Below, one piece after another: positions 32,929-35,826 of a stretch of 40,070 nucleotides of DNA (within the stretch, counting starts at the first letter, position 1; the number at the start of each line of letters is the position of its first letter). Both the position numbers and the translations under genes were made by a program. Source of the DNA: a virus; IMG/VR virus record IMGVR_UViG_3300020433_000017, positions 1 to 40,070 of that record; one strand, written 5' to 3'. Below the pieces are notes generated by a model. That model searched no databases. It saw only the letters and a program-made list of their open reading frames with translations, and was not told the DNA's origin.

Positions 32929-33462
32929 TTAATTTCCTTTTACAAAATTAAAATTAATTACAAACCTATCTAACTTTGTAGATCTCTCTATTCCATGTTC
33001 TAAGTAATTAGGAAACAACACCATTCTATTTGCAACAGAGTCTACCTTACTACCATCTTTGAAAATAGTCTTACCATCATTATCATTGACATAATAAACT
33101 CCTGTAATACCAGTCTTTATCAGACTATCATTATGTAATGTTTTAATTGGATTATCCATATTGGTAGCAGGTGTGGTAAGATTTGCTTTTACTCTTATAA
33201 GTGTACATGGTGATAGTTTATTCAATATAGATTGTACTAAACCATACTCTCTACTTATAAGTGGGTTCTGATTTTCTTTCACAACACCACTATAGAACAC
33301 ATGAGTTAAATGTGAGTAATTCCAATCTTCCTCAGAGTCATGTGACTTGTTATAGTACCAACTAAACCACGGCGACACCATAGTGTCATGTATATTTTTC
33401 CAATCCTTATGATCAATAAAATTGTCTATGACAGTAATCGCAAGACCATTTTCTAATTCCAT
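32929..33462 (-). CDS. Putative 2OG-Fe(II) oxygenase
   Basis: The protein has 177 residues. The metal triad is visible as H110-x-D112 (TLHNDSL) and H156 (FPNYLEHGIERS), with R166 in LDRFVINFNF for 2-oxoglutarate. Between them lies the typical TGVYYVNDNDGKTIF strand pair. The N-terminal half (VIDNFIDHKDWKNIH, PWFSWYYNKS) is that of short phage hydroxylases. Its start overlaps the stop of the coiled-coil gene before it by one base. The substrate is unknown. Confidence 0.85.
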   Translation of the reverse strand: MELENGLAITVIDNFIDHKDWKNIHDTMVSPWFSWYYNKSHDSEEDWNYSHLTHVFYSGVVKENQNPLISREYGLVQSILNKLSPCTLIRVKANLTTPATNMDNPIKTLHNDSLIKTGITGVYYVNDNDGKTIFKDGSKVDSVANRMVLFPNYLEHGIERSTKLDRFVINFNFVKGN

Positions 33463-34098: not shown

Positions 34099-34107
34099 AC
34101 TATTTCC

Positions 34108-34200
34108 TTATCTATGAGAAACAATGAAAGAAACTTCAAGTCTACTGCAGCCCATCTCTGAGTCCACTCGTTCCTCTAGGGGAACACTTGTTATACACAT
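34108..34200 (-). CDS. Possible leader peptide, 30 aa
   Basis: A short frame begins at ATG 34200 (MCITSVPLEERVDSEMG...) and ends 10 bases before the GTG of the cupin gene. It lies in the leader predicted for the promoter at 34234-34262, and a small hairpin (GTTCC...GGAAC, 34170-34185) falls inside it. No good ribosome binding site was seen, so it may be chance. Confidence 0.25.
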   Translation of the reverse strand: MCITSVPLEERVDSEMGCSRLEVSFIVSHR

Positions 34201-34233
34201 AATATAATCGTCAGTCATTAATCTCATATTTTT

Positions 34234-34262
34234 ACTATACCATGATTCGCAATATCTGTCAA
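34234..34262 (-). promoter_or_regulatory. Sigma-70-type promoter (TTGACA-17-TATAGT) with a CGAATCA spacer motif
   Basis: On the minus strand TTGACA (34262-34257) and TATAGT (34239-34234) are 17 bases apart. The spacer contains GCGAATCATGG, the reverse of the GTGATTCG motif repeated just upstream. The predicted start is near 34227, about 130 bases before the cupin gene. Confidence 0.82.
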
Positions 34263-34285
34263 GTATTTATCTAGGGAAGGTAAAA

Positions 34286-34527
34286 CGAATCACTCTCAGT
34301 TTTAGGGGGGGGTACTCTGTGAAAAAACTCTCTGGATACTTATTGCATTTATAGATTGCAAAACACAACACAGATTTAGGGGGTATAAGGCCAAAACGAA
34401 TCACCTACCCCTAGATACACGTCAGCCCCAGACTACTCTTGCGAATCACTCCTTTATCGAATGACCCACCTCATCTAGGGCTGCATGGGTTACCATATCA
34501 AAGTATATCTACAACATATCGAATCAC
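34286..34527 (-). repeat. Array of five GTGATTCG motifs
   Basis: On the minus strand GTGATTCG occurs at 34286-34293, 34397-34404, 34442-34449 and 34520-34527, and GTCATTCG at 34458-34465. Each copy is preceded by purines (GAGA, GTAG, GGA, AGAG, GGTGG), and two copies are followed by TTTT. Spacing is irregular (16-111 bases). The stretch lies between two promoters and holds no recognisable gene. Repeated operator or initiator-protein sites are the simplest reading. Confidence 0.7.
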
Positions 34528-34548
34528 CTCTCTATTAACTACACTATA

Positions 34549-34577
34549 AGTATACACACTTGTGTCGTAGTTGTCAA
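34549..34577 (-). promoter_or_regulatory. Sigma-70-type promoter (TTGACA-17-TATACT)
   Basis: On the minus strand TTGACA (34577-34572) and TATACT (34554-34549) are 17 bases apart, and the -10 box is followed by a second TATAGT-like stretch. The predicted start is near 34542; the first GTGATTCG motif begins about 15 bases into the transcript. It lies after the small-RNA terminator, so it restarts transcription towards the cupin gene. Confidence 0.82.
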
Positions 34578-34629
34578 GTCTTTTTTAAAAATAAAAAAAA
34601 TAACATAATGTATATTATGCGCCTTTGTA

Positions 34630-34857
34630 AAATAAAAAAAACCCAGACCAGCATTGAGCTCTGAAGTCTGGGTTTGTTTTTGTTGTATGTGAAACTGTCG
34701 TTACTCTATCCTACACCATCCCCAACAGTTGAGTCCTCATGATCGGACACCCATTGCGTAGTTAGAAAGGGAGCGGTTTTACTACAGTTAATGAGGGAAA
34801 GACCGAAGTCCATATCAACAGACGCTACTCTCTGTCTTTTACCCTTTAACTAACTAC
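34630..34857 (-). ncRNA. Predicted free-standing phage small RNA, about 225 nt
   Basis: The predicted start (about 34857) of the promoter at 34864-34892 coincides with the 5' arm of a long stem: GTAGTTAG-TT-AAAGGG (34857-34842) pairs with CCCTTT-CTAACTAC (34771-34758), 14 bp with a two-base bulge. Inside it are ACAGA...TCTGT and GGAC-TTCG-GTCT, the latter with a cUUCGg tetraloop. Downstream follow GTCC...GGAC (34748-34733), an 8-bp stem AACTGTTG/CGACAGTT (34730-34693) with a G-rich loop, and the terminator. A 35-codon frame (34813-34706, MDFGLSLINC...) lies within it but has no clear ribosome binding site. I know no matching RNA family. Confidence 0.7.
34639..34675 (-). terminator. Strong intrinsic terminator
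   Basis: A 10-bp stem (AAACCCAGAC with GTCTGGGTTT) encloses a 17-base loop. On the minus strand the stem runs into eight T and then ATTTT, a classic intrinsic terminator. The plus strand has a weaker T-run (TTTGTTTTTGTT), so it may work both ways. It ends the predicted small RNA and separates the right-hand operon from the cupin unit. Confidence 0.92.
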
Positions 34858-34863
34858 ACTTAC

Positions 34864-34892
34864 AGTGTATCTGATTCGTTTCCGTTTGTCAA
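34864..34892 (-). promoter_or_regulatory. Sigma-70-type promoter (TTGACA-17-TACACT) for the small RNA
   Basis: On the minus strand TTGACA (34892-34887) and TACACT (34869-34864) are 17 bases apart. The spacer contains ACGAATCAGA, the same motif as in the promoter at 34234-34262. The predicted start falls at the first base of the long stem of the small RNA. Confidence 0.8.
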
Positions 34893-35000
34893 CCCCTAAA
34901 TGAAAATAATTTTTGACGATAGACTGCAAAGTAAGAACACAACAACTCTATGTTTTTTTATACCTTTTTAAATAGTGTCCGAAAATACCACAAAATCCCA

Positions 35001-35108
35001 TCAAGTACCATATTCTTTCCGATATCCTCCTGTGGGTCTTGTTCTGACCATCTCCTCGTCTACTATGAAGTGGTTCGATAGCATTACAAGTATGAGTATA
35101 ACCTTCAC
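35001..35108 (-). CDS. Possible 35-aa peptide
   Basis: A frame from GTG 35108 overlaps the previous stop (GTGA) and reads VKVILILVMLSNHFIVDEEM, then MVRTRPTGGYRKEYGT. The hydrophobic start could be a small signal or membrane segment. AAAGGAGTGTG lies just upstream as a possible ribosome binding site. It would be the last gene of the right-hand operon. Too short to be sure. Confidence 0.3.
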   Translation of the reverse strand: MKVILILVMLSNHFIVDEEMVRTRPTGGYRKEYGT

Positions 35109-35275
35109 TCCACACTCCTTTTATCCATCACCTGTAATACATACCTGAGTTCATCTATACATTTCCATAACCACATTCGTGTCATTCTGTCATTAGACTT
35201 GGCTCTCTCCTGTTTGAGTTGTTCTATTCGCATCTCTATATACGTTCTTGGGTGTACTGGTTTACCTCTTCTCAT
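35105..35275 (-). CDS. Small basic protein, 56 aa
   Basis: The product begins MRRGKPVHPRTYIEMRIEQL and continues in a basic helix with several tryptophans (MTRMWLWKCIDELRYVLQVM). The ATG overlaps the stop of the oxygenase gene by one base (TAATG), the commonest junction in this operon, which supports it as real. It may bind nucleic acid. No family recognised. Confidence 0.65.
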   Translation of the reverse strand: MRRGKPVHPRTYIEMRIEQLKQERAKSNDRMTRMWLWKCIDELRYVLQVMDKRSVE

Positions 35276-35826
35276 TAATTAAATGTCACTACTAAGACAA
35301 CCCTCCTCTGATGTGGGTCACAATATCCCTGTGTGTGTAGTTCACTATCACTTACAACTGCCTTATACTTCTGTGGATGCACTATCTTTATAAGTCTTCG
35401 TTCATCATCAAAGAATTGAGTTTCACCACTAGTCCACTCATTTAAATACATGAGAAAGTTTCTATGTGGAAACTCATGATCACGATGAATAAAACACTCA
35501 GAATCTTTAGGTTGATGTGTTGTGAAATTGACTGCTGATCTAAGTATTCTATCCCATTTTATATTGTTTTCTTTACAGAAATCTTTGAATATACCCTCAA
35601 ACCTTTCCACATAGTCAGAGTTTGGTGTACCCCATACATCCTTTGTATGGTCGCTACCTCTTGTTCTGAGTGTGTGTGCAAATATTGGATTTATTTTTTT
35701 ACCACCATCAATTCCTGCAGCTGTATCAGAGAACCATGAAAACAAAGGAAAGTCCTCTCCATTCACTACCCATTCGATGAATTGTTCTTGTTCTTTTGTT
35801 AGATTTACTTGATATTCTTTTATCAT
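35275..35826 (-). CDS. Putative 2OG-Fe(II) oxygenase
   Basis: The protein has 183 residues. The metal residues are H114-x-D116 (FIHRDHEFPHRNFLMYLN) and H164 (SDSELHTQGYCDP), with R174 or R175 before a VVLVVTF strand for 2-oxoglutarate; SGETQFFDDE forms the usual hairpin. The H-x-D...H...R order is complete, so activity is plausible. The start follows the previous stop without a gap. The substrate is unknown. Confidence 0.85.
   Translation of the reverse strand: MIKEYQVNLTKEQEQFIEWVVNGEDFPLFSWFSDTAAGIDGGKKINPIFAHTLRTRGSDHTKDVWGTPNSDYVERFEGIFKDFCKENNIKWDRILRSAVNFTTHQPKDSECFIHRDHEFPHRNFLMYLNEWTSGETQFFDDERRLIKIVHPQKYKAVVSDSELHTQGYCDPHQRRVVLVVTFN

Follow-up and report, generated by a model that had tools for sequence, protein, structure and literature searches.

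The window analysed here is a stretch of 40,070 nucleotides from a virus in IMG/VR (record IMGVR_UViG_3300020433_000017), with its genes directed along the minus strand. The best matches of its terminase are to Methylophilales phage Melnitz (72%) and Pelagibacter phage HTVC008M (68%), both classified under Kyanoviridae, with cyanophages next, and on the basis of these matches the window is judged to be from a marine T4-like phage. An intergenic region at 34099-35274, upstream of the baseplate hub gene, has a cupin/JmjC-like gene on one side and a neighbourhood containing 2OG-oxygenase genes on the other. Two minus-strand proteins of the window (32929-33462 and 35275-35826) match phrog_274, labelled DNA endonuclease V, and no Pfam family. 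The second of them contains an oxygenase-like HRDHEFPH stretch, and the phrog_274 label may for this reason be wrong.

A preliminary description of this DNA had proposed that the intergenic region holds a phage small RNA that stands alone, between a promoter and a terminator of its own, a proposal now supported by comparison with related phages. The following elements were recognised:

34864-34892, minus strand: predicted early-type sigma-70 promoter of the small RNA, TTGACA-17-TACACT, recognised from its sequence and conserved in contigs L098 and L088
34872-34878, minus strand: CGAATCA (complement TGATTCG) in the -35/-10 spacer, a GANTC site that fits the extended GcrA motif YGAKTCK
34842-34859, minus strand: 5' arm of outer stem P1, with a 2-nt bulge, in the consensus fold with L098; likely RNA start at 34857-34859
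34777-34835, minus strand: three-way junction within P1, including the conserved CUCAUUAACUGUAGUAAAA stretch (34777-34795), from the fold compared with L098
34832-34835 with 34784-34787, minus strand: stem P2 of the three-way junction
34829-34831 with 34820-34822, minus strand: stem P3, double change at one pair relative to L098
34808-34811 with 34800-34803, minus strand: stem P4 with cUUCGg loop, double changes at two pairs relative to L098
34756-34771, minus strand: 3' arm of outer stem P1, in the consensus fold with L098
34731-34750, minus strand: hairpin M2, GUGUCCGAUCAUGAGGACUC, identical in L098 and with a U-A to G-C double change in L088
34693-34730, minus strand: hairpin M3, an AACUGU/ACAGUU stem around the GGAUGGUGUAGGAUAGAGUA loop, the loop being kept in L088 and L188
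34634-34675, minus strand: intrinsic terminator, 10-pair stem and run of 8 T
34549-34577, minus strand: second early-type promoter, TTGACA-17-TATACT (11 of 12 consensus matches), with start sequence GTGTAGTTA as in the first; conserved in L098
34423-34483, minus strand: second structured RNA, predicted from the consensus fold with L098, with a 10-pair outer stem and an inner hairpin with GAUAAAG loop
34328-34357, minus strand: late-promoter-like element AATCTATAAATGCAATAAGTATCCAGAGAG with a T4-type TATAAAT and a recurrent 24-base pattern
34234-34262, minus strand: third early-type promoter, with CGAATCA in the spacer, before the downstream operon (11 of 12 consensus matches); conserved in L088, L092 and L098

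Promoter, terminator and fold of the unit

The promoter of the small RNA agrees with the consensus at 10 of 12 positions, and the whole of it is kept in L098 (TTGACA-17-TACATT) and L088 (TTGACA-17-TATACT), in agreement with its earlier recognition. Note that a scan of the window returned 32 such sites compared to 25.8 expected, so that the scan alone is weak support. Matches of the promoter region to Streptococcus phages in BLAST were short and weak and were judged to be due to chance. The terminator is strong (z -4.0; 0 of 500 shuffles), with both stem and T-run kept in L098. In L088 a different sequence takes the place of the terminator shared by the window and L098. A strong terminator closes the unit in each of the three phages, followed by a new promoter before any gene is reached. 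The longest ORF on the unit's own strand encodes 35 aa, and L098 lacks the ATG of this ORF.

TGATTCG at 34872-34878 places a GANTC site within the promoter and conforms to YGAKTCK, the extended motif through which GcrA has been proposed to activate promoters methylated by CcrM (PMC7987155). CGAATCA was present in 12 of the 409 TTGACA promoters of the contigs examined, with its start 9-11 nt upstream of the -10 element in every case, and the opposite orientation in none. From the overall frequency of the box ~0.4 such promoters were expected, with some of the 12 observed being orthologous. Within the 40-kb window, six of the seven TGATTCG sites fall in the intergenic region. In the window, the L098 contig and L094 alike, GAWTC is depleted ~two-fold; GASTC shows no such depletion. 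Counting both orientations, TGATTCG/CGAATCA sites are located at window positions 34244, 34287, 34398, 34443, 34521 and 34873, i.e. six within 630 bp.

No phage-encoded GcrA was found among 17 related records, and a search for N6/N4 methylases yielded one, in the L154 contig only. Three of the four genome bins with the late-promoter-like element are alphaproteobacterial, binning errors being possible, and the host may be an alphaproteobacterium. Host shifts within the phage group of Melnitz have been argued for (PMC9004378). Judging from its sequence, the small-RNA promoter may respond to GcrA.

The 5' stem of the preliminary description is real, but its size of 14 bp was revised: P1 now extends over 34842-34859 with 34756-34771 and has 16 pairs and a 2-nt bulge. 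The cUUCGg hairpin is present as described (34800-34811), and in L098 its place is taken by another stem, capped by a CUUG loop. The G-rich loop likewise exists (34702-34721), but the AGGA in it is not conserved, reading AGGU in L088 and CGGU in L188. Comparison of the minimum-energy fold with shuffled sequence, which had been suggested as a check, gave z values of -1.4 to -1.6 for 220-226 nt, near the shuffled range. In this lone fold the 5' end has another partner and P1 is missing; it uses a pairing of the kind AGUUA (near the 5' end) with UAACU (in the junction). These two stretches (34851-34855 and 34786-34790 of the window, minus strand) are both invariant, and their pairing would compete with the outer stem, a possible conformational switch.

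Comparison with related phages

Relatives were gathered as contigs through protein anchors, followed by a sensitive search for the unit. Homologues of the unit, at the matching intergenic position, were found in L098 (79% over 169 nt) and, incompletely, in L087 and L088, two near-identical contigs, so that the exact unit is represented by only three distinct relatives, the window included. L002, the closest relative by a downstream protein, was discarded for comparison, its intergenic region being without synteny. The order of promoter, RNA and terminator is the same in the window, L098 and L088, and a conserved reading frame is absent.

The window and L098 have in common the outer stem, the three-way junction, the near-identical CUCAUUAACUGUnGUAAAA stretch, M2 and the terminator, and the CUCAUUAACUGUAGUAAAA stretch is likewise retained. 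M3 is an extra hairpin of the window, located between M2 and the terminator and absent from L098. In L088, promoter, outer stem and M2 are kept, and the outer stem surrounds M3 in place of the junction. The M3 loop of L188 differs from that of L088 at 1 of 20 positions on an entirely different, still complementary stem; the loop is thus retained in both contigs on replaced stems. Given these differing contexts of junction and M3 in the window, L098, L088 and L188, the small RNA is modular, consisting of a scaffold of outer stem and M2 with exchangeable inserts and hairpins. Its layout is not that of one fixed family, the inserts and hairpins being swapped between phages. Matches of an M2 pattern in L115 and L116 lay in unrelated sequence and were judged to be due to chance.

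Compensatory base changes, the absence of which the preliminary description had named as evidence against the RNA, were present. The consensus fold of the whole unit for the window and L098 reached z -6.4 (0 of 300 shuffles), and that of 34725-34859 alone z -3.7 to -3.9 (1 of 500 column shuffles). The reverse complement of this core gave a weaker consensus fold (-1.8 compared to -3.7), and two neighbouring homologous control stretches gave z values of +0.4 and -0.2. Four pairs were exchanged on both sides between the window and L098: G-C/A-U in P1, G-C/C-G in P3, and G-C/A-U and G-U/U-G in P4. In addition, P1 has a one-sided change (U-G to U-A), and its bulge is filled in L098. Together, the compensatory changes and the consensus fold answer the question in favour of an RNA. 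A model of 34725-34859 built from the two sequences recovered L088 at E 0.016 via the outer stem and M2; a genome-level search with the same model did not report this match.

Rfam 15 had no match in the window at the gathering threshold, consistent with the earlier view that no known RNA family has this layout. At lax thresholds, the best sub-threshold match on the minus strand scored 21.9 bits compared to a cut-off of 47. No tRNA or tmRNA was found in the window by ARAGORN or Rfam. There was also no Rfam match to 6S RNA, and the fold consists of a three-way junction and separate hairpins. The tandem repeats of a type III antitoxin (ToxI) are absent, and no toxin was present among the neighbours with family matches. 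No opposite-strand ORF of more than 34 aa, such as a cis-antisense RNA would face, extends across the unit. We found no earlier description of the unit in Rfam or in the literature searched, which lacked most subscription journals and preprints.

With promoter and terminator kept in relatives, a conserved frame absent and compensatory changes present, the unit has the features of a stand-alone small RNA. We consider it probable that this uncultured marine T4-like phage has here a stand-alone gene whose product, presumably transcribed and with early timing, is a structured small RNA of ~220 nt. Stand-alone RNAs of phages are an already known kind; this one appears to be outside any described family, is modular, and shares its slot with several RNA types that have not been described.

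The slot upstream of the late-promoter-like element

The small-RNA unit lies just upstream of the conserved late-promoter-like element TCTATAAATGCAATAAGTATCCA, a diverged form of which also occurs in Melnitz. The 24-base pattern of this element matched 72 IMG/VR viral stretches, and in many of these, recurrent non-coding stretches run upstream of it. The commonest, family A (~75 nt; model R1), was present in 42 of the contigs examined, a few of them near-identical, mostly ~50-250 nt upstream of the element. Family A is defined by a UUAAGG-n-nGG-n-UGG core and stems P1, P2 and P3. Its structure has 20 pairs, with 88% of cells paired compared to 65% in shuffled alignments, and 17 of the 20 pairs are changed on both sides. 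The covariation score was 0.61, compared to 0.22 after shuffling and 0.10-0.24 with slid partners. By this overwhelming covariation, family A is a well-supported RNA family absent from Rfam 15. Rfam had no match at the slot RNAs (scan of 19 loci, lax scan of one). Examples of family A among contigs L126-L193 are L133:1050-1123 and L131:3747-3821, both on the minus strand. Melnitz, HTVC008M, P-SSM4, S-H38 and Sf-CH5 did not yield family A; two hits, in the cyanophages S-H38 and Sf-CH5, were weak, within coding genes and judged to be due to chance.

The small RNA of the window is not a member of family A, an 8.3-bit hit being to the terminator stem only. The start of the L088 RNA resembles family A (E 0.21). 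The second structured RNA of the window (34423-34483), located behind the promoter at 34549-34577, had a consensus fold with L098 of z -8.6 (0 of 300). Its layout of outer stem, asymmetric loop and inner hairpin resembles family A. The family A model did not recognise it, scoring it at 4.5 bits (E 6), the best alignment in the window that touches the family core.

At least six more non-coding stretches recur in the slot (B, G, H, D, F and C; ~55-165 nt, 4-11 contigs each), and these are likely to be structured RNAs. Examples are L175:749-911, L128:5402-5558 (minus), L127:12685-12816, L134:4408-4499 (minus), L176:3196-3297 (minus) and L141:544-599 (minus). In L133, L161 and L174 the late element is directly followed by tRNA genes, and L102 has a tRNA within its island. 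The baseplate hub gene is downstream in L163 and L128, as in the window. With family A, the recurrent stretches and the tRNAs beside the late element, the slot has the appearance of a locus for stable RNAs in marine T4-like phages.

Two further loci contained RNAs of other kinds. L120:509-1294, from the L098 contig, has, behind a promoter with a CGAATCA box in the spacer, a permuted alpha-type tmRNA and directly after it a manA RNA match. L123:55-323 has a CGAATCA-box promoter, a long closed stem (CUAUAUUACUCAGCGUCC with GGGGCGUUGAGUAAUAUAG) belonging to an unnamed island RNA, and a tRNA-Trp. In the window, the leader of the downstream operon (34114-34227, minus strand) is conserved at the nucleotide level across five contigs with a weak fold signal (z -1.4), and a 39-codon frame in it is broken in L098 and L092.

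Possible functions and relation to known systems

We propose that the unit is a small-RNA gene in a slot of structured RNAs, sometimes tRNAs, upstream of the late promoter of the metabolic and baseplate region. Transcription would be early, by host RNA polymerase from the sigma-70 promoter with its GcrA/CcrM-type TGATTCG box, and would end at the intrinsic terminator. The body of the RNA would be a scaffold of outer stem and M2 carrying exchangeable inserts. As to its action, our tentative reading is that of a trans-acting early RNA that, via its conserved loops, binds a host protein and keeps it occupied. Protein binding is suggested by loops and a fold that are kept while stems and linkers drift, by the scaffold with varied inserts, and by the finding that no complementary target stands out in the searched parts of the phage genomes or the 16S tail. 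A CsrA-type decoy acting through AGGA was ruled out, the GGA not being conserved. The M3 loop may resemble a stretch of 23S rRNA.

Most described stand-alone small RNAs of bacteria pair with messages, and it is possible, if somewhat unlikely, that the small RNA is a trans-acting antisense-type RNA that pairs with host messages via the conserved, unpaired CUCAUUAA...GUAAAA or the M3 loop. The near-identity of CUCAUUAACUGUnGUAAAA in the window and L098 and the retention of the M3 loop in three phages would fit such a role. However, the start regions of 37 window genes and 46 genes of the L098 contig paired no better with the RNA than with shuffled segments, and the same was true of the 16S tail. 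The suggestion that the AGGA loop pairs with messages or rRNA failed likewise, phage start regions and the 16S tail giving no better pairing than with shuffled loops. Inserts that are modular, turn over fast and are exchanged between phages within one slot resemble an arms race, as would be expected if protein binding took the special form of counter-defence, e.g. by mimicry of a type III toxin-antitoxin antitoxin or against another RNA-sensing defence. This we consider improbable, since neither ToxI-like tandem repeats nor an adjoining toxin gene were recognised.

Alternatively, the hairpins might not be part of a gene but form a regulatory stretch, the untranslated leader or attenuator of the downstream genes. 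All local transcription is indeed directed towards these genes, and family A RNAs elsewhere lack an obvious T-run terminator ahead of the late element. Yet the strong terminator in all three phages and the new promoter ahead of any gene make this reading quite improbable. That promoter-, hairpin- and terminator-like strings occur by chance in AT-rich intergenic DNA, with no RNA function, would agree with the z values of the lone fold (-1.4 to -1.6) and with a promoter scan count near expectation. Against this stand the whole-unit z of -6.4, the compensatory changes, the conserved promoter and terminator and the controls near 0, and we regard chance as highly improbable. Extended from the unit to the whole slot, the protein-binding reading would make it an exchangeable cassette of early structured RNAs, switched by GcrA/CcrM and aimed at host proteins or defences, a speculation that we hold to be rather unlikely.

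For lytic marine phages, to our knowledge, little non-coding RNA has been described apart from tRNAs, tmRNA and a small number of riboswitch-like leaders. One small-RNA candidate has now withstood comparison with relatives, and the slot that it occupies exposes at least one well-supported family missing from Rfam, providing concrete candidate RNA genes, open to testing, in uncultured viruses. If the promoter box works as proposed, a lytic phage would time its early transcription by the cell-cycle DNA methylation of its host.

The stable RNAs C and D of T4 (species 1 and 2) are located in the T4 tRNA cluster and have no known function. Like these, the unit would be a stable, stand-alone RNA encoded by a T4-type phage alongside tRNAs in one slot; unlike them, as parts of one tRNA precursor, it has its own promoter and terminator and no Rfam match. 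The manA, wcaG, glnA and PhotoRC-II RNAs of marine T4-like phages, proposed to be cis-regulatory leaders (PMC2864571, PMC9964418), are structured RNAs of the same broad phage group, but the unit terminates before any gene and matches no Rfam model. The two-piece tmRNA of Melnitz and pelagiphages (PMC9004378) is likewise a phage RNA gene behind an early promoter, whereas the small RNA is without a tRNA-like domain or tag frame. The protein binding proposed for the small RNA would be shared with known RNAs of other layouts. ToxI type III antitoxins, CsrB-type decoys and 6S RNA all act by binding protein, and in contrast to these the small RNA is without repeats, a conserved GGA or the 6S layout. 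Finally, although it does not score as a member of family A, the small RNA occupies the same slot and has promoters of the same kind.
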